64,000 nt of DNA. It comes from Spinacia oleracea (taxonomy: Eukaryota > Streptophyta > Magnoliopsida > Caryophyllales > Amaranthaceae). Shown here one piece after another: positions 21,901-52,949 of this stretch. Location: contig NC_079487.1 in the NCBI RefSeq assembly GCF_020520425.1, positions 126,440,385 to 126,504,384 of the forward strand. The letters run 5' to 3'. The translations under genes were made by a program, and so were the position numbers. The notes under the pieces are model-generated. The model was not told the DNA's origin, did not search any database, and worked only from the letters and a program-made list of their open reading frames with translations. The stretch's first letter is position 1, and each line of letters starts with the position of its first letter.

Positions 21901-22324
21901 CACAACATATATCAGTACCAATAACACAAATAATTTGTATTGGTACTTCTTAGCAATGTATTACGTACCAATACTATACTAGTCTTAGTACCAATACCAA
22001 ATTAGCGGATACCAATTACAAGCCACTTGTGTCCATATGGACACAAGTCACTTGAGGCCAAGACTTCCTCGTACCAAACAACTAATAATTGAAACAATGA
22101 AGATTACTATTTCTCTTTGTTATTTGTTCCATGTACTTCAATTCCATTTCCTTTCCTAAATACGTACCAAGCCTTATGAGTTATGATAATCTGATCAACC
22201 ATAAGGGAGAAACTGAGAGAGAAAGATTAATACACACACCTGAGGATTCCAAGCAGAAAGAGCCGCAAAATTATAGACCATCCAATGACCGGAGGTCGAG
22301 TTTTTCTATTCAAAATCCAACATC

Positions 22325-22382
<58 letters not shown>

Positions 22383-22631: not shown

Positions 22632-22638
22632 CTTTCTC

Positions 22639-22675
<37 letters not shown>

Positions 22676-23781: not shown

Positions 23782-26700
23782 TTATACATCCATATTTTGG
23801 TTTTGCAAAAGAGGGGCTTTATGAGAATATGAATCTTCTTCAGAGCTATACATCAACCTACTTTCATTGACTTCTTTCGGCGACTCCTCTTCCGCTTTCC
23901 CCCTCATCACCGTGTAAAATCCAAGTGCTATAATCGTGCCTCCAATCAAACTATAGTACATAAGAGTTAAAAAAATTCAAAGGTATCAGTATATGTGTCG
24001 CAGGGTTTTGGATCCTCTAGAGTTCTAAAATAACTCTACAAGGTAGAGTTTGAGCATATCAATCATTGAATGAAAAATCAATGGTTCATAAATTATCTTT
24101 CCAAAGTTCTCCTATTTTTTCCTGATCAATATGAGCCATTGATTTTAAAATGTATGGTTTAGATAAAACTCTACCTTGTAGAGTTTTATTAAAACTTTAG
24201 AGGATCTATACTCGTGTTGCATACTACGTAAAACGCAAATGAGTAGAATTTTAAAAACGGAGGTAGTATAAGCGTACAAGTCATTGTGTACGTACCTTCC
24301 AAGATGGAGAACATCTCCAAGGAAAGACACTCCCATAATCACTGCGATTATCATTTGGAGTGGCTTAAACATTGCCACGAATAAGGGTCCCTTCTTTCCA
24401 CAAGCCCAAGTCTGGACAATATTTACCACACCGACTTCCAAAGCCTGGTAAAATAAAAGTTAACCTTCGACCATAAAAAGTCAAATATAAGCGTTATAAA
24501 AGAGAACAAAGTGCGATTTTGTTAGTTAAGATTAGTTACCCCAAATAGAATAGCAATCCAAACAATGTGAATACTTGGAGTCCAAACACTAGTATCATTT
24601 TCAGCTAGAAAGGTAACAACGGCCGCCACGATTGTTTCAAAGAAGAAGCTAATCAATGTTATAAGTATCTCTGAGTTGAAGTCCCTCGCAATCCAAGTCT
24701 GGTAAATAAAAATAATATCTTGCGATAAATTATTATAAATCCGTCTCAACTAAATAAAAAAAATAGCTTACGTACGGACGCAATAGAATGGAATAGTTAC
24801 CTTGGCTACAAAAGAGAGGGACAAAAATATGCTACTAGCAAAAAGGAATAGTCCACCAAGGGCCCAATTGGGTTGAGTTTCATTGGCAACAAGAGGAAAA
24901 TGAAGAGAAAATTGGGTTGGTGAAGGGGGAAAAATAGTAATGGGCATTCCTTGGTACAAAGTGACTATGAATGCACCTCCAATTGACACTAATGTTCCGA
25001 CTGATTTGAGTATGCTACTTCGTGCTCTCAAGTTCAATACTTCCATCCTACATATATGGGTTATTTCATAATCTAATTATTTAACTTACTAAAAATCAAT
25101 TAATTAGTTTAAATAGGTTTTAAATTACCTGAAAATGATGCCCATAATGAAGGTGAAAGCAGGAGAAAGATTATTCATTGCTGATGCAAGAGTCGGTGAG
25201 CTGTAACGTATTCCAATAAACAAAAAGATGGAGCAACCACAACTGCATACCAAATTGTTACGGAGTAAGATCTAATCCCATGAAACATCATATGCGAGCG
25301 TTCCACGTTAATAAAAGCAAAGAGAGGAGGATTATAAAACACGGATCAGAGGCGGAGATAGGGGGCGGGTGGGGGCAACAATTTTAAAAAACGCTAATAT
25401 ATAGTAATAAATACTAAAATATATCACTAAATGCTACATGTCTCAATGGTTATTTTGAGTTTAATAACTCATTTATACTCCTTGAACTAGGGTTTGAATC
25501 CTTATACGGTTATACCATATCCTTTCTTTTTAGTTTATTTTTAGGGTTACACTCTCTCCTACGAAATTCATATACTATTGTTTCTTTTTTGATATATTTA
25601 TCCGAACAACATACCTAAAGGGTTCCATTTTGTCAAACCTAAATTGTGCGAAGTATTACGTATATAGGTTTGACAAAATGGAACCCTTTAGGTCTCTAAT
25701 TGCGTGTAAGTAAAAATTATAAAAACTTAATATTCAGAATCCTCGCAGTGATACGAGTTCAACAAAATCTCACTTGACTATGTTTAATTTTACATAATGT
25801 GAAAAAATATTGTCAAAGTTGGTTGATAAATAGTGTCCAAATGAGAAACGATGCATCTATTGCGGAACGGAGATAGTAAAAGTTATTATCTCCGCAGACT
25901 CCGCTTTCATTTTATTTACTCCACTTTAACACACACATAAAAAAAAAAAAAAAAAAAAAAGGTTCTCCAAGTATTAATTTGGCAGAAGCTGAACCTTTAA
26001 TGATCCATGAAAATTTTGATAAACGTTAAAGCCAAGCATGAGCCAACAGCCCAACAAAGGACAAACCTTTTATTGTTAGGTAACAGAAAGATGTGGGCCG
26101 CCTGTGAGGTTGGCAGTTGGCACATACTTCTGTTATCCTTTGTTGGCTCGTATTTGGCCTTAAAGAAGGTTCATCAAATTTTCTACTTTTGCCTTTCTTT
26201 AGTAAGAAACTACAGTACGTAGTAAGAACTAAGGAGTGTTACACTTGTGCACATCACAAAAGCAAACTAATTTGAATATTGCCTGTTTGGGCTTCCAATT
26301 GATTCTCAATTGGGCCACTAAGTCCAAAGCCCAATGGCTCTAAACAAACAGCATCAAACCCACCAATGGCTAGTCAGCCATCCATCAAGGCCCAAGGCCC
26401 AAAAGCAATAAATGACCTATGGGCATTTATTATGCAAACACTATAAATAGGCCGCCAAGGCTCACACCTCAAGGTACGTCCAATTTACCGCCTTAAGACT
26501 ACTCTTCTAGAGAACTTCTCTCTAGAATCCGAGCATCATTCTTACTTAGGCATCGGAGGGGCTTTCCTCGGAAACACCCCCGAGGCTAGTGACTTTGCTC
26601 TTGTGCAGGTGAATTCGGACTCCACTCATTCAAACAAGCAAGATCTTCAACACATACCAAAGGGCCTTCATTCGAAGCCCATTGTTTCCATCTTTACAAC

Positions 26701-29700
26701 ACCGGAACAATTTGGCGCCGTCTGTGGGGAAGAACACTTCAAAGCCTTTGAAAGACATCAATCACCTCTTTCCGCGAAAATGGTGAATGATGTTGTTAAC
26801 AACAATGACGACGATATGATGGTGCGGTCAGATTCAGAATCTGACCAAGAGGGGCACCCTCAATCGATGGCGAGGTCACAGCCAAGCAGAGCTACGACCG
26901 CCACAAATGCAGGACCTCCGATTCCAACTAGGGAAGAGCTCACTGCGGCCATGACCATCATGCAAAACTTCCTCTTCAATGAGAAGCAGCAAGGACTGGC
27001 AAATGACCGCAGAGAAGAGAGGAGGACCAGGCGAAGGCTGAACGAGCCACCCAGTGCGGAAGTGTCCAGACCCGAACGAGAACTCCTTCCCTTGACAGGT
27101 ACACACTTGACGTCGAGGTGGATGGAAAGCACGTGGGACACCCAAAAAAGGGCACAACAGCAACCAGATTGGTTTGCGAGACCATCGCCTACTCCAACAG
27201 CTCTCCAAAGCGAATCAACTACTCGTAACCCTCGGATCCGAAGTTCGGTACTCAGCAGGTTGAGGCCCTCGGTCCACTCAAGGTTAAGACCTTCGATCCA
27301 TACGAGACTCGGGGTAGGTGAGTCGAGCAGATCTGGCGAGCGACCCGAGGTCAGTAGCCGAGAAAGAAGAAGAGACGGGAGGCATGATCGAACCCCTAGC
27401 CCCCATCGTACGCCCGAACGTTCTAATCACAGAACCTCGGCAAACGAAGGCATCAGGGCTAGACTCGGGAAAAGAATCATGACTCCTACGTCATCCCCTT
27501 TCTCGGACGAGCTGATCATGGAAGAAATACCGAAGGTAAGACTGCCAGCTCACCTAACCTACAGCGGAATCACAGATCCGAGGGATCATGTCATCTCCTA
27601 CGAGCAGCAAATGTTCTTGAGTCCTTACTCCGAAGCATGCTGGTGTAAATACTTCCCAACCACGCTAACCGGAGTGGCGGGAGAGTGGTTTAGATCGCTG
27701 CCGAAGGGATCGATCAAGAGCTGGAAAAAGCTGAAAAAGAGATTCTGCACACAGTTCGTGAGCAACAATCGCCCCGAGCGAACCACAGCAGAACTGACCT
27801 CAATCCAACAAGAAAGAGACGAAAGTCTGAGAGAATTCATGGCCAGATTCATGAAGGAATCAACAAACATACCAAACTTGCAGCCAGACGTGGCCATCTT
27901 CGCCTTGAAGCACGCGCTCCAGGAAGGGAAGTTCCGTGACGAACTCTCAATGAAGAACCCCTCCAGAATAGCCGACGTGCTCCAAATGGCTGATGCGTTC
28001 ATCAGAACCGAAGAGTTCAACAAGGCCGCTGCAAGATTGAAAGGATCGTCGGATCCGAGAGACACAAAGAATACCCAGAGCAAGCCCGAGGGCGGCTCAA
28101 GGAAGGGGAAAGAGAAAGTAGGAGCTAGAGAGATGAGCCCGAAGAAAGACGGGAGAAGGGGTGAACTTCAACCCAAATACACCAACTACACTCCACTAGC
28201 TCTGCCCCGAAAAGAGATATTTAGCCTCAACAGAAATGATGAGAAGTGGAAACTACCGGGGAAGCTCAAGTCCAACCCAGCTCGGAGAAACAAGAACAAG
28301 TGGTGCGAGTTCCATGATGACTTCGGTCACCACACCGAAGAGTGCAACTCGCTGAAAGACAACATTGAGGACCTCGTTCGCCGAGGCTACCTGAAACAGT
28401 ACTTGTTAGACCGAAGGGAGGAGAAAGAAAAGGCCGCCAGTGGCAAACAGCATGAGCAACCCCAGAAGAGGGTCTACGAAGCAACAGGACATAAGAAAAA
28501 CGACATCCTGGTGGTGTTCGGGGGGCAGAAGTCTGGCCAGGCCAGCAAGAAACACCTAAGAGCCCTCTCCCATCGGGTCAACTTCAGCGCGGTTGGAGAC
28601 AACCAACCACACCCCCCGAACATGACCTTCACTGCTGATGATTGCTTCGGAGTCCAGTACAAACATGACGATCCTCTGGTCATTTCCATGGACCTCAACA
28701 ACCACAACGTACATCGAGTGTTAGTCGACGGAGGAAGTGCCGTCAACATCATCTTCAGAAACTGCTTCGAGCAGCTGATCCTCGAAGAACCAGAGGAAGC
28801 ACTGACGAAAGTCAGTTATCCTCTGATCGGATTCAACGGATCCGCAGCTATCCCTCGAGGAAAGATCACCCTGCCAGTCACAGTGGGCGAAGGCCAGGCA
28901 GCAAAAACCCTTCGGGACGAATTTTTGGTGATGGACTGCGACTCCGTATACAACGTAATCATGGGGAGAACCATGATTCACAAGATGCAAGCAGTCCCCT
29001 CCACATACCACCAGCTGATGATATACGTCTCGGATGCAGGATTCGCCGAACGAATCAGAGGTGATCAAGAAGTGGCGAGAAGAACCTGCCACACTGCTGT
29101 CCGAAAACCCAAACTAGAGGACGGCCCCGAGGAAGGAAAAGGAGCTAAGGGAGAGGAAAGCGAGGCAAAAAGGAGAAGAGCAAGCACGAGCAGCTTGTCT
29201 CCCGCAGAAGTTGATGCCCGCCCCGAAACCCTATCTCCCGAACCAGATCAAGAAATGGAGGATATCTTCCTCGAAGATAATTCAGACAGGAGCGTCCGAA
29301 TAGGCAAGGGCCTAAGCTCGGGGCTCCGAATCGATTTGATCCGACTACTCAGGGATCACAAAGACATCTTTGCATGGTCAGCAGCAGATATGCCAGGGAT
29401 AAATCCGAAGCTGATTTGTCACAAGTTGGACGTCAACGCTGAAGCTCGGCCAATCAAGCAAAAAAAGAGAAATTACTCCTCGGAGAAAAACAAAGCCATC
29501 GCCGAGGAGGTTAAAAAGTTGCAAGAGGCCGGATTCATCGAACCATGCATGTATCCGAAGTGGCTGGCCAACGTGGTGATGGTCAAGAAAGCGAACGGCT
29601 CATGGCGAATGTGCGTGGATTTCACAGATCTGAACCGAGCCTGCCCCAAAGACTGCTATCCCCTGCCAAGGATAGATCAACTGGTTGACTCCACCAGCGG

Positions 29701-32700
29701 CCATGCACTGCTCAGCTTCATGGATGCCTTTTCAGGCTACCACCAAGTATTCATGCACCCCGATGACAGGGCAAAGACAGCGTTCATCACAAGCGCAGGA
29801 GTGTTCAACTACAAAATGATGCCTTTCGGCTTGAAAAATGCCGGAGCCACCTATCAGAGGTTAGTTGACCACGTCTTCGCCGACCAGAAAGGGAGGAATG
29901 TGGAGGTCTACGTGGATGACTCCATCGTAAAAAGCATCAAGGAGGAAGACCATGTCAAAGACTTGGCAGAGACCTTCGGAAATCTGAGGAAATACAGCAT
30001 GAAGCTGAACCCAAAAAAATGCGTCTTCGGGGTGAAGTCAGGGAAGTTCCTCGGATTCATGGTGAGCGAAAGAGGAATTGATGCGAACCCAGACAAAGTC
30101 CAAGCGGCATTGGATTTACCCGAGCCGAAGACCAAGAGAGATGTGCAGAGGCTAACCGGCAGGTTAGCCGCACTAACAAGGTTCATATCAAAAGCCTTGG
30201 ACAAGGGAGCCCCCTTCTTCAAGGCACTGAAACCAAAGAACCTCCCCGGAGGAGAAGCAGAACCAGTCAAGAAAAAGGGGGTCCCGAGGAAAGTGGATCC
30301 CGAACTGATATGGGAACAAGAGCAAAAAGAAGCTTTTCAGCAACTCAGAGCCCACCTAGCTCAACTGCCGACACTGGCCAGACCAAAGGAGGGGGAAACC
30401 CTGTACCTATATGTCGCAGTTAGCCCTGGAACCGTCAGCGCAGTGCTTCTTCGGGAAGAAGAAAAGAAGCAACAGCCAATCTACTTCACCAGCCGAACAC
30501 TCACAGGGGCCGAAACCCGGTACCCACTCATCGAGAAAGTCGCATATGCAGTAGTGGTAGCTGCACGAAAACTGAGGCCATACTTCGACTCCCACCAGAT
30601 CACAGTGCTAACTGACCAACCGCTCGAAAAAGTACTCGACAAAATAGAGAGGTCAGGAAGATTGGCTGCCTGGGCCTTCGAACTATCAGAGTTCGGCATC
30701 AAATATCAGCCGAGGACAGCAATCAAAGCACAAGCATTGGCAGACTTCTTGGCCGAATGCTCATACCAGGAAATGTTGGATGATACGAAAAGCACTTGGG
30801 AGGTCTTCACTGACGGATCTTCCACAATAAACGGCTCGGGGGCAGGAGTTGTACTAATCCCCCCGACGGGGAAAAGCATAGAGTATGCATTGAAGTTCGG
30901 CTTCAAAGCAACCAACAACGAGGCTGAATACGAGGCCGCAATCGCAGGGATAGAGCTTTGTTTATCCCTGGAGGCCGAACATGTTCGCCTCAAAACTGAT
31001 TCCCAGCTTGTAGCCAACCAGATCCGAGGGGAATATGAGGCCAAATGGCCCAGCATGACAGCCTATTTAGCAAAAATTAAATCCTTAACGTCAAAGTTAA
31101 GATCCTTTGAAGTCATCCTCATTCCCCGAGGACAGAACACGCAAGCAGACGCACTGTCAAAACTCGCAAGCTCAACACTCATCGACCTAAACAGGTCGGT
31201 CCACGTGGAAGTTCACCAAGAGAGAAGCATCGACTTGCTACCCACCACAGTATGCAGCTTACGTACCGAACCTAGCTGGATGGACGCAGTAGTTGCATAC
31301 AAAGAAAGGGGAGAACTTCCCGAAGATAAGCTGCAAGCGAGAAAACTGAAAAGATTCAACAGATGGTTCATCATCAGCGCTGAAGGAGAGCTCATGAGGA
31401 AATCATTCTCTGCTCCGCTGCTAAAATGTGTGGGTCCAACAGACGCTGACTACATCCTAAGGGAAATCCACCTCGGGATATGCGGAAACCACATTGGAGG
31501 TAGGACATTAGCACATAAAGCCCTTCGGGCTGGGTACTGGTGGCCCACTATGGTTTCCGAGGCAAAGCAGATGGCAAGGAAATGCGAGAAATGCCAAAAG
31601 TTCGCACCAGCCATCCATCAACCAGCTCAAACCCTACAATCAACACTGTATCCCTTACCATTCGCACAGTGGGGGTTAGACATCATTGGTCCCTTCCCCT
31701 CAGCGACGAACCAGAAAAAGTGGTTGATTGTAGGAGTCGACTATTTTAGCAAATGGATCGAAGCCGAAGCTGTCTCCTCCATCACCGAACCTCAGGTCCG
31801 CAAGTTCATATGGCAGAACATCATCACAAGGTTCGGCATACCAAGACTGATGGTCTTCGACCACGGGAAACAGTTCGATAACACCCCGTTGCAAAAGTGG
31901 TGCAAACAGTTCGGCATACACCTAGCGTACTCGGCAGTCTGTCACCCACAAAGCAACGGGCAAGCCGAAGCTGCTAACAAACTCATCCTCAACGCACTCA
32001 AGAAAAGAGTCGAGGATGACAAAAACAAATGGTTAGAAGAGCTACCCGGAACGCTATGGTCCCTTCGAACCACTGAAAAAGAAGCTACCGGACAGACACC
32101 GTTCCACCTTGTATACGGATCCGAAGCTGTAATTCCTGTGGAAATCGGAACAGAAAGCCTGAGGATCCAGGCATACAACAGGTATGATGGGCTCCAAGGA
32201 GAAAGCAACAATCAACTTCTATCCGAAGCTCTCGATCTACTGGACGAAGCTCGGAACGATGCAAGGACACTCAACGCAGCCTATTTGCAGAGGGTCAACA
32301 AGCATTACAACCGAAGAGTCAACGCCAGACCCCTAAAAGTCGGTGATCTAGTACTCAGAAACGCCGCCTCGGTTCAGAAAGGACGGATCCATGGCAAACT
32401 CTCAGCCACTTGGGAAGGACCATACATCATCCATTCCGAAAAAAGGCCAGGCACGTATATGCTGAAACAGTTAGATGGAACAATTCTGAAGAACCATTGG
32501 AATACCGATGTTCTCAAGAAATATTTTGTATGATCTCTGTCTGTAAACCAAGTAAGTTGTTTAATGAGAAGAGGAAAGCCATTGGCACCATGTGTTTCAT
32601 TAAACTTATCTCTATAATTATTGTCCCTTTATATATATATGCAGCCTCGGATCTGATCAATCCGAGACTAAAAACAGGTTGACTTTGCCCATTCCTTGAT

Positions 32701-35700
32701 AAAATGCAAGAAATGACCAAATCATACACTTCAGGGAATCGTCCAGAATCCTCGGATTCGCGGTACCCTAATAAAATTTGTTCGCAACAAACAGTCGCTC
32801 GAATCAAGTTATAAAACTCCGGCTCAGATCCACGGATCGCCGAAGGCATAACTAAAGAGGCAGACTAGCGATCTCTTGCCCAGGTTTCCGAACCACAAGA
32901 GATCGGAAGAACAATCCAAACCTCTGAGCAGATCGACGGATTTGAAGAGTCTGGAAACTAAAGAGTCTCTTAGCAGATCTACGGATTTCAAGAACTCGCA
33001 AAACTAAAGAGTCCCTTAGCAGATCTACGGATTTGAAGAACTCGCAAAACTAAAGAGTCTCTTAGCAGATCTACGGATTTGAAGAACTCGCAAAACTAAA
33101 GAGTCTCTTAGCAGATCTACGGATTTGAAGAACTCGCAAAACTAAAGAGTCTCTTAGCAGATCTACGGATTTGAAGAACTCACAAAGTCAAAGAGTCTCT
33201 TAGCAGATCTACGGATTTGAAGAACTCGCAAAAGTTAAAAAGTCTCTTAACCGATCTACGGATTTAAAGAGCTCGCAAGATCAAAAGGTTTTTAGCAAGT
33301 CTACAGAAAGAGGAGCTCGAGAAATCTACGGATTTAAAGACCTAAAATTGCGAAAGAACAAGTTGAAAAGAAGCAGCCAAGTAACAAACATTCATTTTTT
33401 ATTCAATATTTGGGGGAAGTACAAATACATTGAAAACCTCAAAAATTGAAAACAAAATGAAACAGTTAAAATCGGCAGCCATCAACAGACAATACCGGCC
33501 TACCGAAGTACTAAGAAAGCAAAAAGAAACGAGTACAACGCAGCGCCGAGGCAAAAGGGGGAAAGGCAAGCACATGTTCGGAAGTCCTCAACTGGAACCG
33601 ACCGACTCTGAAGAAGACGACTGCCCGAATCCCTAACTCTTGGGAGTCTCAGGAGCATCCCCCAGGGGAGCATCCTTCGAAGAACCCCCAACAGTAGTAT
33701 CACCTTCGGAAGTCGCCTTCTGGGCCCGAGCCTCTGCAAGAGCAGCTTGGCGTTCAGCTTCAGCTTCGTCCCGATCGGCCTGGCACTCCACCAAGTGATC
33801 CTGGGCCCTCATCCAGAGCGGAACCTTCTCATTCCAAGGGAAATGGGGCATATGCTTCGCGAACATCCGCCGAGCGCCCAGGATGCCATTCCAGTATTGC
33901 TCCCTACACTGATCAGCAGTGTAGAGGTCAACTCTCTCTTGCTCCAGTTTCCGAATGGCAGCATCCTTCTCTCGGATCTTCAGCTGGAGAACGGGCACCT
34001 TATCAGCTTGGTTCTGAACAATCTCCCGATTCTTGACAAACTGCTGAAGCCTCGCCTCCGCTTCCTGGCTCTGCTTAATGGCCGCCTCAAATTTAGACGT
34101 CATCTCCTTGAGAAGACTGTCTTTTTCTTCAAGTTCGCTCGCAAACTTGGCAGCCATTTCTTTCCTCTCCTTGTCGAAGGAAGCTATCTTTTCAGCATCC
34201 TCCTCGACTCGGAAAGTAAGCTTCCCAACTTCGGCCCCGATCTGCTCAGCCGATTCCCTAGCCTCACGACTGTACTGAAGGTACAGTAGCTTGAGGTCCA
34301 CCATCTCGGCCATGAGCTGTCCAGCCTTCTGGTCCAAGACAGGGATATCACGAGCATAAGCCTCTTGATACCTCCTCAACTGCCTCTCCTCAACCGAGCT
34401 ACACTCGGAAGCGAACGAGGACCAGAAAACAGCCTGGGAAAGAAGAAAAGACAAGAAAAGATGAGGAAAGAAGAAAACAACAAGCCAAAAACGGAACTCA
34501 AAACAAAATTTCCAACACTTACCTCATTCAGATAATACTGAGCCATCATAACTGGGTTCCTCTCCTCAGCTCCAGGAACCCTCCACTGCGGGTTGGCCCG
34601 AAGAAGATTCTCCCGTGCAGCTTCGGGACCCACCAAAGATCCCACGTGAGCCATGGGGTTCTCCCCCAAAACCGGAGCCCTAGCATAGCGAGCCATCGCC
34701 TCCCTTACCTCCTCGGGGATCCGTTTCAGCGGAACATCCGAGCAAGGGTCAGCGTGGATCAGTCTATCCAGGGCCGAGGTCGAAGTAGAGCCCAAGGTCG
34801 AGTGGCGCCTCTTCCTCGTCAGACCCTGCTCGGGTCGCTCCTCCTCAGCAGAAGGGACCTCCTTCTCAGCTTCGGGAACCTCCATGTGAGCCTCGGTGAG
34901 ATCCACCATCTCCTTATCTGGACTTCTCTCCCTTGCGAGAGAAACGTCAGCAGATTCTTCCCTCCGCTCGGCCACAGTAGGGACATCCGAGCCAGGAACA
35001 AGGTCGGCTTCAATTGCCTCCATCACCTTGGTTATATCCTGGATCTCGATCCCCAAAGCAGCAGACGGCTTCAGCGGAGAGGGGATGGTATCTTCCTCGG
35101 CCAACGGTTGGTCCACGGGCGGCGGTTCCGCAAACACCACACTCTTCAACTTCTGCCCTGGCAAGGGCATGAAGTGAAGGAGATTTTTGGGAGGAGGCAT
35201 GACTTCCGAAACTTCTTCCTACAGGGCAAACGCTCAAAGGTCAGTTTCAGAAAAAGAGAGAGCGGATCACAAAGGCTCCAAGTCAGAACAAATACCTTCT
35301 CCGAAGACTGAGAAGCTTTCGCTTTCTTCGGATGCGCAGAAGGCCTCAAAAGAGTGCTGCCCTTCCTTTTGCGCTGATCCTAAACAGAGGAGACCAAGGG
35401 TCAATAAATGTAAAAGAAGACAAAGGAAGGAATAAAGAAAAAACACGAAGTACCCGGTTCCTAGATAAAGAGATATCTATCCGAGCCGGAGATGAAACCG
35501 AAGGAACGGCACGCGGCACAGCGTCAGTCCCAGGACCCTAAAAAGATGGTCCAGGACCAAGACGTTAGCCGACGGCCAACCAGAAAGAAAGACAAACAAA
35601 AGATTTCGAGATATAGAAACACTCACCGGATCCGAGGTTGTCCTCAAATCAGGGAGCACGACTTTCACCGGAACAGCTTCGGGAGAAGAGGCAGAATCCC

Positions 35701-38700
35701 ACGGATCAGCTCGAACTTCAGATATCCGAGCGACACCCGACGGAGACAGCACGTAATCCTTCAAACGAGGATTACGAGGATTTTCCTTCCCGAACTTGTA
35801 ATCAGGGGTCGAGTCGTGAATGGTCTTCAGATCCAAAGAAATGCCCAAGACCACAGGATCAACGCAGCTAAAGCCGTACTCTGCAGAAACAAAGCACAAA
35901 GCAAAGTCAATAAAACGAGACAAAAAGGAGGAGGACAAACTTACTAAAGCACGGTCCCAGCCGAAAGACACCTACCCCTGTCAAAAATCCTACTGAGACC
36001 GGCAACAGCAAGAATGTCCTCCCGCAAGATATAGTTGAGGTTCGGGAGCCAGTTGGACGGCAGTTTGTAGTTGTCCTCCCGAGCCAAAAACCACTGGAGG
36101 AGATCCACGTAGTGGTGATGGTTCCGATCCGGAGCAGCCACGCTTCGCATATCAGGATCAGGAGTCACAAACCACTTCGGAGGGCGGTAAAAATGTGGAT
36201 GCTTCGGATCTGTCGGCACACGAACAAACAACCACTCCGTCTTCCAATTATGATCAGAGCTGAGGTAAGGGTAGGCCGTAATGTAGTTCGGCTCCCCCTT
36301 CCTTCGGGATCTTTTGTTGATGATGGTCCACCAACCATACCCATCTCCCTTGGAGGCATGGTTGAAAGACAGATCGTGCAGATCCCGAAACACGGCAACA
36401 GAGCATGGAAAGTTAATAAAATCGCACACCCATCTAAATCCGATGATGTGCCTCATAGATTTGGGGGTAAGCTGGGCCAAACTGATGTTGTACGACACCA
36501 GGAGCTCGGAAACGAAGGGATCCAAAGGAAAGCGGAGACCGTTCTCCAAATGATGAGTATACACAGAGATGAACCCCCTCGGCGGATGAGTCACCCGAGG
36601 ACGCTCCTGGTCGGGAAGCTCGCACCAGTACCCCAAGGCGTGCTGGATTCCGTATAACTCTTCGGCTCTCCGATGGTAGTTCCCCAGCTTCGCCTCCACC
36701 AACCAGTCACCACTGACCGATTTTTCCAAGGGACCATCGATCTTAGTGGTCTCATGCAGAATCGGGGCATACTTGCCCTGCGGATCAGCTTCAGTCCAAT
36801 GAACTGGAAACTCAGGGTAAGAGCGGCGCACACCCGAAGAGCCAGCTTTCTTACCAGAAGTTGCGCGTTCAGACACGCTAGACCCGCCAACAACATCATC
36901 TTTTGAAGCATCCCAACCAGTCGAGCGCCTCTCCACCGGCCTCTCCGAAGGCCGACCCCTCGAAGTTTTCGGTAACCTTCCCGAAGGCACGTTCTCCCTC
37001 TCACTAGAGGAATCAACGACGAACTTGCTCTTGCCCCTATTCTTTGCCATGGCCGCGAATTCTCGGTCTAGGGTTGAGATTGAGGGGTAGAAGGAAAAAC
37101 GAAGAAAAAAAGGAGAATTCAGAAACAAATTACCTTTTTCCGAAGCGGAATTCGCCGATAAAACGAACAACACAAGTTCCCGAAGTCTAAAGTTGGCCGA
37201 ATTTCGTAGATCTGAAGAAGCAAATTGCACTGCGATCGCCGGAATTTAGAGAGAGAATGGGTTTGAAAGAAGGAATAAAAAGTTCAAAGAGAGCAAAGCA
37301 CCCAGTATTTATAGAAAAGAAAAGGGCGCATCAACTTCCTCAACCCACGATCTCCACGACACGATACAACTCCCAACACTTGTCATCAATGCAAATCATC
37401 TCTTTTCAAAAAAGAGAGGGAACTTTCGGACTTCTGACAGCTGGAAACCCACCCATTTAATTCTAAATGGACCGGGTCTGGGGGGCATGTTGTTTGGGCT
37501 CCCAATTGATTCTCAATTGGGCCACTAAGTCCAAAGCCCAATGGCTCTAAACAAACAGCATCAAACCCACCAATGGCTAGTCAGCCATCCATCAAGGCCC
37601 AAGGCCCAAAAGCAATAAATGACCTATGGGCATTTATTATGCAAACACTATAAATAGGCCGCCAAGGCTCACACCTCAAGGTACGTCCAATTTACCGCCT
37701 TAAGACTACTCTTCTAGAGAACTTCTCTCTAGAATCCGAGCATCATTCTTACTTAGGCATCGGAGGGGCTTTCCTCGGAAACACCCCCGAGGCTAGTGAC
37801 TTTGCTCTTGTGCAGGTGAATTCGGACTCCACTCATTCAAACAAGCAAGATCTTCAACACATACCAAAGGGCCTTCATTCGAAGCCCATTGTTTCCATCT
37901 TTACAACACCGGAACATTGCCAATTGATTGATTCAATATTGATCAACATAAATTGGATTGACTTGAAATTATCATAGATCTGTATTTTTAAATAGACATT
38001 GATGATAGCTAAGTTTGTGGTTAAAAATTGGATTAAACAACAAATCAAGCCAATATGAACTTATATTATATGAAAGTCAAAGAAATTTGGACTACGATTA
38101 TCTTAAAAGCCCTATAAAAATTCTGAAATCAATTGATAATAAAAGGAGTAATTTATCAAGTTTATACAAGGGGGTTAACACGACAACTACGGAGTATTTT
38201 TCTTCTCTAATGAAGTTATTCCTCTGTTCTTTTTTAAATGACATAATTATTTAGGCACGTTTGCCAATGCACGATTTCAAACATTAATATCTTTCATCAT
38301 GGATAAGAAAAAATTATAAAAAGTTGATATTTAAAAACTATTTATTGAGACGAATCTAACAAGACCCCACACGACTATGATTTTTCTTAGAGCATCTTTA
38401 ATAGTAAGCTAATTTGATAATTAGCTTGTTATGCCACATAAGATTTCAAGCTATTTTATTGTTTAGCTAATTTGTGCTCCAATGGCTAGCAACTAGCTTA
38501 TTATTTAAATTTGTCCCACTTGTCCACTTGTCAATTAATTATTTGGCAATTTTGAGAGCTAGTTGTCAAGCAAATTAGCTTGTTTAAGCTAATTTGCTTG
38601 GCCAAGCTAATTTATTAGTTTCACTCCAATGGTCTAGCTATTAGCTTGGAACTTTTATAAATTTCAAGCTAGTCCCTAGCTACAACCATTGGAGATGCTC

Positions 38701-39404
38701 TTATGTATAAATCACAAAAGTAAGTCAAATGAGCTTATGTGAATAGTGTCAAAAACCCCATTGTGTCATGTAAATAAGAATGGAGGAAGTATGACTCATA
38801 TGAGCACAACTTTTTCTTTTAATTAAGTAAGAAAAAAGACTAATCAACCAACACTTTATCACATGTTACGCAGTCCAACTATGCATGTCTATCTTGAGCA
38901 ACCTTCAAACATTACGCAAATGATGGGGCTCGATCAACTCCGAGTACAACTTGAGATTTTAATACATAACTAAAAATATTGAGAGGGAGAGAGATCGATA
39001 CCAAAGGACTCCAAGTAGAAAGAGCCGCAAAATGATAGCAACACCAATAGGTGGAGATGGAGTTTTCCTGTCCAAAATTAATCCCATCCAATTAACATGA
39101 TTTGATCGATCAAATATTCATAAATACTTCCATATATGTTTTGCCGAACTAGTAGTGTGACAACTAAATCCGAATGTCAGAGGCAGCAACTAAAAGAAGA
39201 ATTATTATAAGAACAAGCTAGAATCGATTACCTGTGAAAAAGGAACGCAAGGGGAATAAGGAAGACGAAAGCTATGGCATGAGCATAAGTTGTGAAGATA
39301 TAGTTGCTCATACCTTTAGCCATGGCTGCTTTACTCAGTGTATTGCAACCCACATCCATTAATTCCATTGTTAACAGAATTATTACCATATTTGCTTCCC
39401 ACAT
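23782..39404 (-). CDS. WAT1-related EamA transporter, gene C (7 exons, 358 aa), intron 2 carries a gypsy element
   Basis: WAT1-related membrane transporter, substrate unknown. Exons: 39232-39404, 39002-39067, 25129-25242, 24801-25047, 24540-24698, 24296-24444, 23782-23950. Exons 1-2 lie to the right of the 11.6-kb retrotransposon and exons 3-7 to its left. The frame is continuous across the gap (phase 2; the split codon gives Cys) and all introns are GT-AG. Motifs: [60 protein letters not shown]. The exon 2 donor reads TTTG|GTATCG, weaker than the CAG|GT of its relatives. Whether the 13,759-bp intron is still spliced efficiently cannot be told from sequence. Closest relative in the cluster is gene B. 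Confidence 0.88.
24010..24206. mobile_element. MITE in intron 6 of gene C (family copy 1)
   Basis: The inverted ends GGATCCTCTAGAGTTCTAAA and AAAACTTTAGAGGATC, with an inner repeat CTCTACAAGGTAGAG / CTCTACCTTGTAGAG, form a strong fold. An almost identical element sits at 43957-44154 in gene D. No TSD could be fixed. Confidence 0.65.
25613..25693. repeat. perfect 29-bp inverted repeat in intron 2 of gene C
   Basis: ACCTAAAGGGTTCCATTTTG... at 25613-25641 is exactly complementary to 25665-25693, with a 23-base loop. It may be a tiny MITE or an excision scar. Either strand's transcript could fold into a hairpin. Confidence 0.8.
25939..25960. repeat. poly(A) run, about 22 bases
   Basis: This is an uninterrupted A run in intron 2 of gene C, shortly before the gypsy element. 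It could be the tail of a retroposed sequence, but no body or TSD is evident. Confidence 0.6.
26284..26709 (+). repeat. 5' LTR of the Tat-type element
   Basis: The 426-bp LTR runs from TGTTTGGGCTTCC to CCGGAACA. A TATA box (TATAAATA, 26442-26449) marks the probable promoter and start of R. The only difference from the 3' LTR is T versus C at the eleventh base. Confidence 0.95.
26442..26449 (+). promoter_or_regulatory. TATA box of the 5' LTR
   Basis: TATAAATA in an AT-to-GC transition inside the LTR is the likely core promoter for the genomic RNA. The identical box in the 3' LTR is at 37649-37656 and points towards exons 2 and 1 of gene C on the antisense strand. Confidence 0.7.
26713..26730 (+). 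other. primer-binding site, tRNA-Asp-like
   Basis: TGGCGCCGTCTGTGGGGA begins four bases after the 5' LTR. The first nine bases match the complement of the 3' end of plant tRNA-Asp (TGGCGCCGT); later bases match only partly, so the exact primer tRNA is uncertain. Confidence 0.7.
26780..32533 (+). CDS. gag-pol: Gag-Pol polyprotein of the Tat-type element (1917 aa)
   Basis: A single uninterrupted frame encodes all replication proteins of the retrotransposon. The frame is open back to 26603 in the LTR, but the first ATG is at 26780, after the primer-binding site. Order: Gag core (about residues 270-380), a Cys/His knuckle-like segment ([14 protein letters not shown], from 509), aspartic protease (VDGGSAV, Asp about 650), reverse transcriptase with YVDD at 1044-1047, the standard gypsy RNase H, a second RNase H beginning FTDGSS (Asp 1345), then integrase with an HHCC zinc-binding region and D1634, D1694, E1730, giving the D(59)D(35)E spacing. 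The second RNase H is characteristic of the Tat clade. No stop or frameshift is seen, so activity is possible. Confidence 0.95.
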   Translation: MVNDVVNNNDDDMMVRSDSESDQEGHPQSMARSQPSRATTATNAGPPIPTREELTAAMTIMQNFLFNEKQQGLANDRREERRTRRRLNEPPSAEVSRPERELLPLTGTHLTSRWMESTWDTQKRAQQQPDWFARPSPTPTALQSESTTRNPRIRSSVLSRLRPSVHSRLRPSIHTRLGVGESSRSGERPEVSSRERRRDGRHDRTPSPHRTPERSNHRTSANEGIRARLGKRIMTPTSSPFSDELIMEEIPKVRLPAHLTYSGITDPRDHVISYEQQMFLSPYSEACWCKYFPTTLTGVAGEWFRSLPKGSIKSWKKLKKRFCTQFVSNNRPERTTAELTSIQQERDESLREFMARFMKESTNIPNLQPDVAIFALKHALQEGKFRDELSMKNPSRIADVLQMADAFIRTEEFNKAAARLKGSSDPRDTKNTQSKPEGGSRKGKEKVGAREMSPKKDGRRGELQPKYTNYTPLALPRKEIFSLNRNDEKWKLPGKLKSNPARRNKNKWCEFHDDFGHHTEECNSLKDNIEDLVRRGYLKQYLLDRREEKEKAASGKQHEQPQKRVYEATGHKKNDILVVFGGQKSGQASKKHLRALSHRVNFSAVGDNQPHPPNMTFTADDCFGVQYKHDDPLVISMDLNNHNVHRVLVDGGSAVNIIFRNCFEQLILEEPEEALTKVSYPLIGFNGSAAIPRGKITLPVTVGEGQAAKTLRDEFLVMDCDSVYNVIMGRTMIHKMQAVPSTYHQLMIYVSDAGFAERIRGDQEVARRTCHTAVRKPKLEDGPEEGKGAKGEESEAKRRRASTSSLSPAEVDARPETLSPEPDQEMEDIFLEDNSDRSVRIGKGLSSGLRIDLIRLLRDHKDIFAWSAADMPGINPKLICHKLDVNAEARPIKQKKRNYSSEKNKAIAEEVKKLQEAGFIEPCMYPKWLANVVMVKKANGSWRMCVDFTDLNRACPKDCYPLPRIDQLVDSTSGHALLSFMDAFSGYHQVFMHPDDRAKTAFITSAGVFNYKMMPFGLKNAGATYQRLVDHVFADQKGRNVEVYVDDSIVKSIKEEDHVKDLAETFGNLRKYSMKLNPKKCVFGVKSGKFLGFMVSERGIDANPDKVQAALDLPEPKTKRDVQRLTGRLAALTRFISKALDKGAPFFKALKPKNLPGGEAEPVKKKGVPRKVDPELIWEQEQKEAFQQLRAHLAQLPTLARPKEGETLYLYVAVSPGTVSAVLLREEEKKQQPIYFTSRTLTGAETRYPLIEKVAYAVVVAARKLRPYFDSHQITVLTDQPLEKVLDKIERSGRLAAWAFELSEFGIKYQPRTAIKAQALADFLAECSYQEMLDDTKSTWEVFTDGSSTINGSGAGVVLIPPTGKSIEYALKFGFKATNNEAEYEAAIAGIELCLSLEAEHVRLKTDSQLVANQIRGEYEAKWPSMTAYLAKIKSLTSKLRSFEVILIPRGQNTQADALSKLASSTLIDLNRSVHVEVHQERSIDLLPTTVCSLRTEPSWMDAVVAYKERGELPEDKLQARKLKRFNRWFIISAEGELMRKSFSAPLLKCVGPTDADYILREIHLGICGNHIGGRTLAHKALRAGYWWPTMVSEAKQMARKCEKCQKFAPAIHQPAQTLQSTLYPLPFAQWGLDIIGPFPSATNQKKWLIVGVDYFSKWIEAEAVSSITEPQVRKFIWQNIITRFGIPRLMVFDHGKQFDNTPLQKWCKQFGIHLAYSAVCHPQSNGQAEAANKLILNALKKRVEDDKNKWLEELPGTLWSLRTTEKEATGQTPFHLVYGSEAVIPVEIGTESLRIQAYNRYDGLQGESNNQLLSEALDLLDEARNDARTLNAAYLQRVNKHYNRRVNARPLKVGDLVLRNAASVQKGRIHGKLSATWEGPYIIHSEKRPGTYMLKQLDGTILKNHWNTDVLKKYFV
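32915..33345. repeat. 46-bp tandem repeat block between integrase and the antisense gene
   Basis: About eight to nine copies of a 46-bp unit (core CTTAGCAGATCTACGGATTT, then GAAGAACTCGCAAAACTAAA). The middle copies are almost identical and the outer ones diverge. Variable tandem repeats in this position are known in Tat elements. No coding or obvious regulatory role is visible. Confidence 0.9.
33633..37050 (-). CDS. antisense six-exon gene inside the Tat-type element (997 aa)
   Basis: Exons (minus strand): 35976-37050, 35627-35880, 35454-35537, 35296-35379, 34523-35218, 33633-34433. All five introns are 74-95 bp with GT-AG ends. Intron 1 is phase 1 and the others phase 0, and the 2994-nt joined frame is open. 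The first ATG of the leader is used. Residues about 156-230 (from [16 protein letters not shown]) resemble the region Pfam calls 'putative gypsy type transposon' (Transposase_28). The middle is acidic and low in complexity. Exon 6 is a long Glu/Lys/Ala-rich coiled coil (about residues 750-900). Antisense frames at this position are known in Tat elements such as Grande; their function is not established. The splicing model is my own and needs RNA support. A TATA box lies upstream at 37306-37313. Confidence 0.8.
37306..37313 (-). promoter_or_regulatory. TATA box for the antisense gene
   Basis: CTATAAATAC on the minus strand lies about 255 bp upstream of the antisense gene's ATG, with no intervening ATG. 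It suggests that this gene has its own RNA polymerase II promoter instead of depending on the LTR. Confidence 0.55.
37469..37487 (+). other. polypurine tract of the Tat-type element
   Basis: The G-rich stretch GACCGGGTCTGGGGGGCA lies just ahead of the 3' LTR at 37491, the usual position for the plus-strand primer of reverse transcription. Confidence 0.7.
37491..37916 (+). repeat. 3' LTR of the Tat-type element
   Basis: The 426-bp copy matches 26284-26709 at 425 positions by direct comparison and is followed by the TSD TTGCC. Its TATA box (37649-37656) could drive a transcript running antisense through exons 2 and 1 of gene C. Confidence 0.95.
38390..38700. mobile_element. Tourist/Harbinger MITE in intron 2 of gene C
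   Basis: The termini GAGCATCTTTAATAG and CATTGGAGATGCTC are imperfect inverted repeats, flanked by TTA at 38387-38389 and 38701-38703, the 3-bp TSD of PIF/Harbinger elements. The 311-bp interior repeats AGCTAATTTG-type motifs and is non-coding. Confidence 0.8.
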
Positions 39405-40199
39405 TTTCCTCCTTTCTTTTCTTTTCTTTTTCTGAAATTGTTTTTGTTTTGTTTTTATTTTGGATTTTTGGGTTTAGAGACTTTATATTTGGATGACGTG
39501 CTACAAAGTCCTTTCGAATTAGTCCATTTTTTTGTGTTGGGCTTTGGAATAAGTCTTTTTTAATCCCTATTCCTCAATAATTAATTAAAGGACTAAAGTA
39601 GATATATACAACCAAATGCATACATCATTACCCTTAATTAAAATATACATACTCCTTTTATTATTCTGAAACCAATTAATAATAAAAGGAGTAGCTAACG
39701 TAGTAAATTAAAAATTAAATTTGATTAAGATCGATACATGCATAATATTCATATCCAACTTGGAGTAAATTAAATCTCACTACGAGACAATTATATTTTG
39801 ATTCGTCTATGTGTGTTTCGTTATTCACATGAGATCCCCATCACATTTATAATTTGTAAAGCCTTTGTTGCTCATTTGGAAAAAAAAAAAAAAAAAACTA
39901 GTAATCCTTGCAAGTTACAACCTTATCTGAAAAAATAGTTAACAAGAAATTGAGAACTTTCATTGGGCCAGAGACTCCACAGTCCACACTCCTATAGTCC
40001 TATTTAGTTGGTTTCAACATCATGGATATTAGTTAGCTAGCATAAAGGCATTCAATTAATCAAAAGTCTCCTAAATGAGTTTATATACATGATAAAATTG
40101 GTGGGATTTAATTACAAATTGCACTTGCACTAATCTGAGGAAAATCCTGTAGAACAAATTAAGATACTTCAACCTTGCGGATTTAGTTGTCACATTAAC

Positions 40200-40520
40200 A
40201 ATTTAAAACGTTTTTTTTCATGAGATGCTCTTAAGATTTAACGAAATGCACGAAATACCCTTAACTTTTCATAAATACACCAAATGCGTACCATCTTCCT
40301 CCAGTTTCGTTAACTTTTCCATTAACTTTAACTGTAATTAAATTTAATGTAACGGCGCTGGCGGAAAAGAGCTATTAAGGATATTTTGTGTATTTTTATA
40401 AAATTTTAGGGGTATTTGGTGCATTTCTGGAAAGTTAAGCGTATATGGTGCATTTCTTTAAACCTCAGAGACATTTCATTAGAGATATTTCATTTAGAAA
40501 ACCGTACTTTAAATTATACT
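40200..40520. mobile_element. MITE-like element with long degenerate TIRs
   Basis: GAAATGCACGAAATACCCTT on the left is mirrored on the right by a block reading GGTGCATTTCTGGAAAGTTA. The pattern recalls the Mutator-like element at 7545-8539, but the ends and TSD are blurred. Confidence 0.4.
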
Positions 40521-40566
40521 ATTAACCACATGTATATTTTTTTTATAAAGGTAAGGAAAAAGAACT

Positions 40567-40800
40567 TAGAGCATCATTAAAGGTAAGCAAATTGGTAAGT
40601 TGTTTTCATTTGCCATGTCAGATTTTCAAGCTATTATTTTTTTATGTGTATTTTGCTCCAATGGTTAGCAAGATGCTTGAATTTTTTTAAACCGTTTTTT
40701 TAATTTATTTTATGATTCAATTCACAAGTTTTCAAATAAAACAATTGTTTTACGTTCTTTTATTTTCCAAGCTAATTTGCTTAACTTGGCTAATTGCTCA
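40567..40800. repeat. partial Tourist-like MITE
   Basis: TTAGAGCATCATTAAAGGTA followed by AAGCTA/GCTAATTTG motifs resembles the left part of the element at 38390-38700. The right terminus is missing. Confidence 0.3.
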
Positions 40801-41158
40801 TATGTAGTACGGAATACTACTGATTCATGGGTTTTCAAGCAATCGCTATAGATACACCTCCTAATCCCCTACTTCGTATAATACTACTACATACATGTCA
40901 ATTCAATTAAATTCCGCCTTCACCGTCCAAAGGTCAGATTGTTATAATCTTCCAAAAATAGAAAAGTTTAGAATTTTTGACAATGGAAGGAATAGTTCTC
41001 CAAGTTTATATTTTTGTTATTACGTCCTTTCTTCTCCGTTATGGGACACTTAAACATGTGTATTATTTTCATATAGTGTCTCAACAATATGTAGGGCGAA
41101 AAATCCCACATTCCCACTCCATCAATCATCAATGCAAACAAATCAGCGTGTCTTTAAA

Positions 41159-44100: not shown

Positions 44101-44517
44101 ATGGTTTAGATACAACTCTACCTTGTAGAGTTTTATTAAAACTCTAGAGGATCCGGACTCAAATGAATATTACCTGATAATTGCAAGCAAGAATATCCGC
44201 AAAATTGTAGAACATCTAATAGGAGGAGGCGGTGTTTTCCTGTTCAAAACCATTCAACATCTTCAAAACTAATGTGACAATTACTTAAATTCTGATGGAT
44301 TGAAAGTAACCTTTGAGGTATTGTTATACATAACGATGACATACCTGTGGTAGAGGAAAGTGGTGGGAGCAAGAATGAATAGAGAGATGGCATGAGTGTA
44401 AGTAATGTAAACATTGTTGCTCATTCCTTGAGCCATAGCTGCTTTTGTAATTGTATTTGAACCCACAAACACCACTTCCATTGCCACTATTATTCCAAAT
44501 ATCTTTATTTCCCACAT
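41159..44517 (-). CDS. WAT1-related EamA transporter, gene D (7 exons, 373 aa), altered C terminus
   Basis: WAT1-related membrane transporter, substrate unknown. Exons: 44345-44517, 44174-44239, 42862-42975, 42329-42563, 41995-42153, 41749-41897, 41159-41384. Introns are GT-AG with conserved phases. Motifs: [60 protein letters not shown]. Close to gene E. Near the end, after IPMLH, one extra base relative to gene E (CATGACC versus CATGCC) shifts the frame past the family stop, which would lie at 41203-41205, and adds a tail ending NSPNYLSFR. The tail is cytosolic and variable in this family, so the protein may still work. Intron 2 holds two MITEs. Confidence 0.88.
43509..43769. mobile_element. 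Stowaway MITE in intron 2 of gene D
   Basis: The ends CTCCCTCCGTCCTTAAATAT and AATATTCGAGAACAGAGGGAG are imperfect inverted repeats flanked by TA (43507-43508 and 43770-43771). Confidence 0.75.
43957..44154. mobile_element. MITE in intron 2 of gene D (family copy 2)
   Basis: This copy is nearly identical over its whole length to 24010-24206 in gene C, with ends GGATCCTTTAGAG and CTCTAGAGGATCC and the same inner repeats around CTCTACAAGGTAGAG. It ends close to exon 2 (acceptor side at 44174). Confidence 0.65.
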
Positions 44518-44599
44518 CTTTTTTCTGTTCTTCTCCTTCTTCTTTCTCTCTTTCTCTCTTTTCTAGGATTTTTTGGTCTTTTGTATTCGAAAGATTCAT

Positions 44600-46070: not shown

Positions 46071-46172
46071 ATGCATAATTAACATTTGTACATGACTCGG
46101 AAATTTTTGAGGCCCATGTAGGCATGTAGCATAAACGCACATACGAGTCATGTACGAATGTTAATTATGCAT
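46071..46172 (-). repeat. 29-bp inverted repeat, hairpin just after gene E stop
   Basis: ATGCATAATTAACATTTGTA... at 46071-46099 pairs with 46144-46172, with one T/C difference that becomes a G-U pair in one strand's RNA. The loop is 44 bases. It starts eight bases beyond the stop of gene E, so the 3' UTR of that mRNA should contain a long stem. Confidence 0.8.
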
Positions 46173-46179
46173 GCATCTG

Positions 46180-52924: not shown

Positions 52925-52935
52925 CACGAACCTTA

Positions 52936-52947
52936 GCTCTGATACCA
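52936..52947 (-). other. primer-binding site, tRNA-iMet
   Basis: TGGTATCAGAGC on the minus strand is the complement of the plant initiator tRNA-Met 3' end and starts two bases inside the 5' LTR boundary. Confidence 0.9.
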
Positions 52948-52949
52948 CT

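Follow-up and report, generated by a model that had tools for sequence, protein, structure and literature searches.

The antisense frames lying between pol and the 3′ LTR of a Retand-type retrotransposon in Spinacia oleracea very probably constitute one multi-exon protein-coding gene, predicted to have six exons and 997 codons. The gene appears to be under selection, and its splicing is proposed from the conservation of its boundaries among copies. Insofar as sequence comparison can decide, the contrast in indels and the dN/dS ratios among copies, together with an intron shared by four families, settle the reality of the gene. The explanation we favor as a whole, with confidence somewhat above even, is that of a spliced antisense accessory gene encoding a nuclear coiled-coil regulator, possibly DNA-binding.

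A predicted six-exon antisense gene in a Retand-type element

The window, that is, the whole 64,000-nucleotide stretch analyzed, contains an 11.6-kb Retand-type Tat element that surrounds the antisense gene. Its two 426-bp LTRs (5′ LTR, TG..CA, 26284..26709; 3′ LTR, 37491..37916; both on the plus strand) differ by one mismatch, and the target duplication TTGCC directly adjoins the outer side of each. Immediately internal to the 5′ LTR, a stretch starting with TGGCGCC (26713..26729, plus strand) is the likely primer binding site. Gag-pol forms one open frame (26603..32533, plus strand; earliest in-frame ATG at ~26780) comprising gag, RT, RNase H, a second RNase H and integrase, with Pfam matches to PF03732, PF00078, PF17917/PF17919, PF13456, PF17921 and PF00665. 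In residue order, RT_RNaseH (1266-1364) is followed by RVT_3 (1403-1521), which we take to be the second (archaeal-type) RNase H, and by the integrase zinc-binding domain from 1617; an additional RNase H in this position is common to Ogre and Retand (PMC6317226) and is expected of the Retand lineage. A 46-bp tandem repeat of 7.8 copies (32922..33278) separates pol from the antisense gene, and array and gene together lie in a POL-3′LTR region of 4,957 bp, in keeping with the Retand elements described in PMC11963269, where this region is long (2.9-6.6 kb), carries an antisense ORF and often contains tandem repeats. The single gag-pol frame and the presence of Transposase_28 instead of a plant mobile domain favor, on sequence features, Retand over Ogre. 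The element probably belongs to the family of cluster 'Spinacia oleracea 1', for which Table 1 of PMC11963269 gives an LTR of 425, an internal region of 10,719, a POL-3′LTR region of 4,850 and one array; the corresponding values in the window are 426, 10,781, 4,957 and one array.

On the strand opposite to gag-pol, six exons of 1075, 254, 84, 84, 696 and 801 nt (2,994 nt in sum) join into 997 codons and a stop, with no internal stops and with all phases matching, across five introns of 95, 89, 74, 77 and 89 nt, every one of them GT..AG. A preliminary description of this locus had listed the same introns, exon sizes, phases and frame, all of which were reproduced exactly; what it called a complete splicing model is best read as a prediction. 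T content is 42-56% in the introns versus 19-30% in the exons. Along the minus strand, exon 1 (35976..37050) ends in phase 1 and is followed by intron 1 (35881..35975), exon 2 (35627..35880, phase 1 to phase 0) and intron 2 (35538..35626). Exon 3 (35454..35537, phase 0-0), the weakest exon, and intron 3 (35380..35453; 74-86 nt among copies) precede exon 4 (35296..35379, phase 0-0) and intron 4 (35219..35295; 77-78 nt among copies). Exon 5 (34523..35218, phase 0-0) is then joined to exon 6 (33633..34433, including the stop) across intron 5 (34434..34522; 79-117 nt among copies), whose donor and acceptor score highest in the region.

Gene-finder tests gave results that depended on the codon model. 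A self-trained finder, whose codon model was learned only from the interiors of three long frames, returned the exact six-exon model at four of eight intron penalties (-11, -12, -14 and -16) and the same five introns with additional exons at both ends at the other four (-6, -8, -9 and -10); its top score was 252, versus a maximum of 11.7 over 200 dinucleotide shuffles. With gag-pol codon usage, finders missed the six-exon model and gave the complete model negative scores (-4.9, -18.4); in 4/5 settings they retained only intron 5, joining exon 5 from an internal ATG to exon 6. Nor was the six-exon model recovered by length-maximising finders, which under strict sites returned the first three exons followed by an extended exon 4; no shuffle attained 2,994 nt (0/200, then 0/200, 0/200 and 0/60). 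Frame length alone is nevertheless weak evidence, because the plus strand here also yields a frame of 3,210 nt when no site filter is applied. The proportion of A at third positions is 0.08-0.11 in the antisense gene versus 0.32 in gag-pol, and because of this difference in composition both the gag-pol-trained and the length-only finders were judged unsuited. Deleting exon 3 from the model loses 2.6 score units.

Constraint among copies and across Transposase_28 families

Copies of the family were added from the same genome, 29 for exons 2-6 and 10 for exon 1, with exon 6 used to select them. Distinct indels number 3 in the 2,994 nt of exons versus 12 in 414 nt of introns (Fisher p 2.9e-9), and the contrast persists when exon 6 is left out (2 in 2,193 exonic nt, p 1.5e-8). 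Exon 1 has none in 10 copies, exon 3 none in 29 copies and exon 4 likewise none, exon 2 has two, and each of the five introns has some. The splice ends of introns 2-5 are retained almost throughout the 29 copies, with GT in 115/116 cases and AG in 116/116. The preliminary description had named the absence of splice sites and frames from other copies as evidence that would speak against the gene, and the 29 copies examined did not contradict it.

Selection on the reading frame, to which the same description had pointed as a check, is evident in dN/dS: 0.091 for exon 1 (11 sequences) and 0.185 for exons 2-6 (bootstrap 0.115-0.306; 30 sequences), versus 2.04 and 1.74 for the shifted frames of exons 2-6; exon 3 taken separately gives 2.97, a value derived from very few changes. 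Constraint is ~1.6 to 3.4 times weaker than on gag-pol, the latter having been measured on another, more diverged copy set. Substitutions part exons from introns less well than indels do: in 10 copies, intron 1 diverges less than exon 1 (0.0036 vs 0.0061), and the divergence of introns 2 and 5 only slightly exceeds that of exons 2 and 5.

These data bear on two readings that dispense with a spliced gene. The antisense transcript could itself be the product, pairing with the sense RNA, feeding siRNA and tuning silencing, with the frames being incidental; an RNA product is raised as a possibility in PMC7264820, and wherever genomic RNA is produced alongside antisense RNA over the 3′ region, the two could pair. 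We regard this as improbable, since low dN/dS in frame versus high values in the shifted frames points to selection on a protein, and indels are sparse in the exons and not in the introns; an RNA effect could coexist with the protein. Alternatively, the region could hold several unspliced antisense ORFs, one encoding a Transposase_28 protein and another a coiled-coil protein. PMC11963269 does count antisense ORFs of at least 600 bp one by one, and exon 5 contains an in-frame ATG at 35200 from which the gag-pol-trained finders begin, but the distribution of indels over short exons and all five introns, the conserved GT-AG ends, the phases that join throughout and the sharing of intron 1 by four families make separate ORFs very unlikely.

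The multi-exon reading extends beyond the window family. Three distant Transposase_28 families in the same genome are also multi-exon, with exon versus intron indels of 20/2349 versus 24/302, 5/2304 versus 28/382 and 10/2628 versus 11/302. For intron 1, the window and 9/10 tested loci of these families agree in both alignment column and phase (phase 1), in frames that were not cut at the donor. One further predicted intron in these families, intron 3 (72 nt) of family FB, is probably no intron: two of five copies have CT for GT, and the finder fuses both exons in loci L020 and L022. Each of the four families has members in which basic clusters follow the Transposase_28 block. Comparison of the window protein with the other families gave no match past residue 374 at E 0.01, and a function common to the C-terminal part is thus an assumption on our side.

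Two observations concern the fate of the introns. Of the 150 copies listed, 15 have an open frame of 520-537 residues around exon 6. Precise loss of intron 5 was considered for these and rejected, as intron 5 of L057, the one of the 15 examined, carries an insertion of 28 nt. Processed copies were sought with the joined exon 5/exon 6 36-mer, representing one of the five junctions; with up to 3 mismatches allowed, it matched nowhere in the genome, and the unspliced control 36-mer gave 142 matches; the absence of processed copies is neutral, because such RNA need not be copied back.

Taken with the frames and splice sites, this constraint supports the six-exon antisense protein gene within a Tat retrotransposon that had been proposed. 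A host gene or other transposon captured in antisense and now decaying would also bring introns and a promoter of its own, like a cellular gene. The dN/dS of the window family is not that of a decaying gene, however, the gene plan with a homologous intron 1 recurs in four families of the genome, and antisense ORFs of the TRP28 (Transposase_28) type are present in 97% of the Retand clusters published in PMC11963269. Decaying capture is therefore a most improbable account; as the origin of the gene, an ancient capture is possible.

Predicted protein, promoter and mode of action

The Transposase_28-like region of the preliminary description is a match to PF04195 at residues 163-225, entirely within exon 1 (E 6.8e-10, 39.5 bits, cut-off 26.2). 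Exon 6 modeled alone gives a predicted 193-residue helix, probably a coiled coil, with pLDDT of 91-96 across ~residues 31-140. AlphaFold returned no usable fold for exon 1 (pLDDT 32), and a comparison of exon 1 with viral contigs gave no match. Exon 4 carries a bipartite NLS-like stretch, QRKRKG..HPKKAKA, by motif prediction, the pattern search having followed inspection of the window protein. The TATA box CTATAAATA (37306..37314, minus strand) begins ~263 nt upstream of the antisense ATG, on the 3′ LTR side, and its core CTATAAAT is kept in 10/10 copies; of 15 loci from the other families, 6 have a site of the TATATA or CTATAA type no more than 600 nt from the first in-frame ATG.

In the mechanism that we propose, a promoter just inside the 3′ LTR would drive transcription antisense to gag-pol, and removal of the five short introns would yield one protein with an N-terminal Transposase_28 region, a linker with the NLS-like stretch and a C-terminal coiled coil. 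The protein would enter the nucleus, dimerize through the coiled coil and contact DNA or chromatin through its Transposase_28 part. It would regulate its own element family, acting on expression or on a step inside the nucleus, and in this design it would resemble retroviral HBZ. In sense genomic RNA the introns would be present as reverse complements and stay unspliced, allowing every reverse-transcribed copy to regain them; a sense-strand gene would lose its introns each time a spliced RNA was copied. The introns would thus persist through retrotransposition because the gene is antisense.

Given a multi-exon protein gene, we lean toward regulation over other roles for its product. The protein could also be real and spliced and serve the pre-integration complex, through nuclear import, tethering to chromatin or integration, and transport of this complex is discussed in PMC7264820; the predicted NLS-like stretches in the linker and the long predicted helix, suited to protein contacts, are compatible with such a role. 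We consider it rather unlikely, as a promoter of its own and antisense expression would suit regulation better, while the data presented here do not separate the two.

Relation to known antisense genes and significance

That antisense frames occur at this site was already known, and they were unexplained (PMC11963269, PMC7264820), as the preliminary description had said. Antisense TRP28 (Transposase_28, PF04195) ORFs of Retand LTR-retrotransposons were published by Vicient 2025 (PMC11963269), where TRP28 is predicted to be DNA-binding; the window gene shares with them its antisense position between pol and the 3′ LTR, its PF04195 domain and the accompanying tandem array. That study, in which antisense ORFs of at least 600 bp counted singly number 104 (57 with TRP28; 11 Smc domains), gives separate ORF Finder ORFs, and the word intron is absent from its main text, whereas the frames in the window form six exons of one gene. 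A survey requiring single frames of 250 codons reports Transposase_28 in 23% of Retand elements (PMC6317226). Among the matches listed, as in the consulted portions of PMC9289625 and PMC11728184, no description of introns in antisense Tat/Retand genes was found; key older literature lay outside the search and may contain one.

Other systems offer partial parallels. Gene23 of maize Grande, likened to the window gene through its description in PMC7264820 only, is antisense in the same place, is transcribed from a promoter upstream of gene23 and encodes a nuclear protein. HBZ of HTLV-1 and APH-2 of HTLV-2 are antisense genes at the 3′ LTR end with spliced mRNAs and basic nuclear-localisation domains, HBZ also carrying a bZIP domain (PMC3736048); their two-exon transcripts begin in the 3′ LTR, whereas the window gene would have six exons and a promoter just inside the 3′ LTR, and the resemblance is an analogy of design only. 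Ogre, also a Tat element, has one sense-strand intron with the gag-prot and pol frames on either side, spliced from a subset of transcripts (PMC6317226), in contrast to the five predicted antisense introns of the window gene.

Retand antisense ORFs have long been catalogued as separate frames. If they are exons of one gene, ORF scans overlook part of it, and a full protein is newly defined for expression, localisation and assay; the question lends itself to testing, given five exact junctions in a family that is young and multicopy. As a broader proposal, which we advance tentatively and which may well not hold, most of the antisense ORFs that Retand elements of flowering plants carry in the POL-3′LTR region would be exons of one ancient multi-intron gene for a nuclear Transposase_28/coiled-coil regulator, antisense precisely since introns there survive passage through genomic RNA, and cassette exons that leave the frame intact, exon 4 with its NLS-like stretch among them, could switch where the protein resides. 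Judged from sequence, the element seems to possess a real, spliced accessory gene from which it benefits, and the antisense placement of this gene would provide a simple reason for the existence of an intron-rich gene inside a retrotransposon.

Structure of the antisense gene and its host element

The preliminary description joined the minus-strand frames at 37050-33633 into one six-exon gene, and the coordinates, exon lengths, phases and splice dinucleotides of this model are all reproduced from the sequence. Intron 1 is in phase 1, splitting a codon, and introns 2-5 are in phase 0; T content is 42-56% in the introns versus 19-30% in the exons. When the 246 GTs of the region are ranked by a generic plant splice model, the donors of introns 1-5 stand 16th, 7th, 19th, 5th and 1st; their acceptors stand 7th, 13th, 11th, 55th and 1st among 275 AGs. 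A self-trained exon finder, whose codon model comes from 809 codons in the interiors of three long frames, returned the exact model at four of eight penalties and the identical five introns, with extra exons at the ends, at the other four; because some of the frames it scores are those it was trained on, what it adds independently is exons 2-4 and the junctions. The six-exon model was recovered neither by finders using gag-pol codon usage, where it scored below 0, nor by length-maximising finders, which without a site filter reach 3,210 nt on the plus strand of the gene region. Third-position A is 0.08-0.11 in the antisense gene versus 0.32 in gag-pol; both values may reflect a bias in base composition along the whole strand.

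The host element spans 26284-37916, as delimited by its LTRs (426 bp, TG..CA ends) and flanking TTGCC duplications. It looks very young, since the LTRs differ by one mismatch, and the 5-bp duplications at both outer flanks are perfect; gag-pol and the antisense gene are both open. Gag-pol forms a single frame, open as far as 32533, that matches Retrotrans_gag, RVT_1, RNase H models, Integrase_H2C2 and rve, along with RVT_3, which represents a second RNase H. Placing this second domain between the first RNase H and integrase is the arrangement described for Ogre and Retand (PMC6317226). After pol lies a 46-bp tandem array of 7.8 copies. Repeated segments (families D2-D5, D7 and D8) flank the element on both sides, at 20400-25250 and 39200-48550. 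Their minus-strand translations are membrane-protein-like, and by eye we take them to be WAT1/nodulin-like; the one 58-aa piece searched had no Pfam match. We read these repeats as tandemly arrayed genes that the element's insertion interrupted. Two copia-type gag frames identified by domain matches, at 51803-52948 (minus strand; PF14223, PF22936) and 62017-62442 (plus strand; PF14244), are pieces of further LTR retrotransposons.

Conservation among copies in the spinach genome

The assembly searched (894 Mb in 242 contigs, six of them 115-189 Mb) has at least 150 loci matching PF04195, the Transposase_28 model (150 scored among 2,698 candidates), and at least 150 copies of an exon 6 piece at ≥94% identity (150 scored among 935 candidates). 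The 30 best exon 6 loci, the window among them, left 29 others for comparison; exon 1 with 85 nt of intron 1 was compared in 10 copies and the remaining parts in 29.

The splice sites and frames of a functional gene had been expected to recur among family copies. The splice sites do: in introns 2-5 of the 29 copies, all 116 acceptors retain AG and 115 of 116 donors retain GT, the sole exception being intron 3 of one copy, L034. The frames are kept in most copies, and three of the 29 carry a change in exons 2-6: a frameshift (L036), a stop with an 18-nt deletion (L051) and an in-frame deletion (L057). In L057, an insertion lengthens intron 5 to 117 nt, which is divisible by three and lets exons 5 and 6 read through; open frames of 520-537 residues surround exon 6 in L057 and 14 further exon 6 copies among the matches listed.

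Distinct indels relative to the window separate exons from introns: none in exon 1 (10 copies) and, in 29 copies, two in exon 2 (one frameshift, one of 12 nt), none in each of exons 3, 4 and 5, and one of 18 nt in exon 6, versus 12 in the 414 intron nt sampled (2, 1, 4, 1 and 4 in introns 1-5; Fisher p 2.9e-9, or 1.5e-8 with exon 6 left out). Substitutions part them less well, the mean difference to the window being 0.0036 in intron 1 versus 0.0061 in exon 1, 0.0182 versus 0.0167 for intron and exon 2, 0.0176 versus 0.0129 for intron and exon 5, and 0.026-0.028 in introns 3 and 4 versus 0.003-0.005 in exons 3 and 4.

The proposed dN/dS comparison among copies bears out that the accessory gene is under constraint: pairwise Nei-Gojobori ratios are 0.091 for exon 1 (11 sequences) and 0.185 for exons 2-6 (30 sequences; codon bootstrap 0.115-0.306), against 2.04 and 1.74 when exons 2-6 are read in the shifted frames. 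By exon, the ratios are 0.119 (exon 2), 2.97 (exon 3, which means little because dS is only 0.0026), 0.106 (exon 4), 0.276 (exon 5) and 0.125 (exon 6). In gag-pol, the 500 codons on either side of the RT piece used for picking copies give 0.054 and 0.057 (12 sequences; dS 0.126 and 0.084); the value is 0.009 within the RT piece, which was the basis for choosing the copies. Constraint on the accessory gene is apparently weaker than on pol, in a loose comparison of different copies at different divergence.

Intron 1 in three further Transposase_28 families

Twenty other-family loci, hand-picked among the 150 PF04195 matches scored of 2,698 candidates, resemble the window protein within exon 1 (25-38% identity in the main stretch), with no match past residue 374 at E 0.01. 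By DNA they form families FA (10 loci), FB (7) and FC (3); a single stray match, upstream, links L012 and L017. Exons were predicted with the window gene's codon model, which fits exon 1 poorly, so that many models start too far downstream; those of L011, L013, L015, L017, L019 and L024 are partial or broken. A 116-nt exon follows the first in 5 of 10 FA and 3 of 3 FC loci, succeeded mostly by 375 and 765 nt in FA, and by 331-363 and then 153-185 nt in FC, where the last exon is 690 (L018) or 600 nt (L026), or split (L027). FB exons after the first measure 161, 114 and 190-193 nt (or a single 355-379), about 185, and finally 411-615 nt.

For the intron 1 alignment, frames were read through to their own stops, since donor-cut frames could force ends together. 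The donor falls in the same column and in phase 1, six residues past a shared GL, in the window and 9 of 10 loci (FA 5/6, FB 1/1, FC 3/3); in L011 the finder's site lies five residues beyond that column. L021 alone stands for FB, and its five sister loci keep GT..AG at intron 1. Indels again distinguish exons from introns: 20 in 2,349 versus 24 in 302 nt in FA (7 loci; p 2e-12), 5 in 2,304 versus 28 in 382 nt in FB (6 loci; p 1e-19), and 10 in 2,628 versus 11 in 302 nt in FC (3 loci; p 2e-6). The exon indels include frameshifts (13/20, 3/5 and 7/10, respectively), so some copies are decaying. Relative to the reference locus of each family, GT and AG are kept in 17/18 and 17/18 cases in FA, 22/25 and 24/25 in FB, and 8/8 and 8/8 in FC. 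The end of pol was reached in 8 of the 20 loci, with pol on the opposite strand in all eight; the same orientation check gave an upstream match to a 36-residue piece in L015 on the same strand.

The encoded protein and its proposed function

The Transposase_28-like region noticed earlier is confirmed by a domain match at residues 163-225. The residues contributed by exon 4 include a bipartite basic stretch. Basic clusters, a pattern picked after the window protein had been seen, also follow the Transposase_28 block in members of FA and FC and, more weakly, of FB, with none in the partial models of L011, L015 and L024. Exon 6 is predicted to form one 193-residue helix (whole-piece mean pLDDT 79). 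On general principle, the antisense introns are not introns within the genomic RNA undergoing reverse transcription, and their persistence would follow from this strand arrangement; a genome search for a spliced copy of one junction found none, with a positive control search.

Antisense TRP28 ORFs of Retand elements and tandem arrays are already described in PMC11963269, whose Table 1 entry 'Spinacia oleracea 1' is probably the window family, as is the nuclear gene23 protein of maize Grande in PMC7264820. Within the literature searched, and allowing for possible older exon accounts, four points are new: the antisense frames as exons of one gene, the first intron conserved in four families, selection across the spliced frame, and a basic stretch lying in an exon so short that ORF scans overlook it.

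The antisense gene is multi-exon and constrained. Its transcription would start from a TATA box at about 37313, and the transcript would be spliced. Precedents are maize gene23 for the promoter and nuclear protein (PMC7264820) and, for an antisense regulator that is spliced and nuclear, HBZ and APH-2 of HTLV (PMC3736048); Vicient likewise compares Retand with retroviral antisense genes (PMC11963269). The spinach protein may be pictured as one that would enter the nucleus, contact DNA or chromatin, and regulate its own element family.
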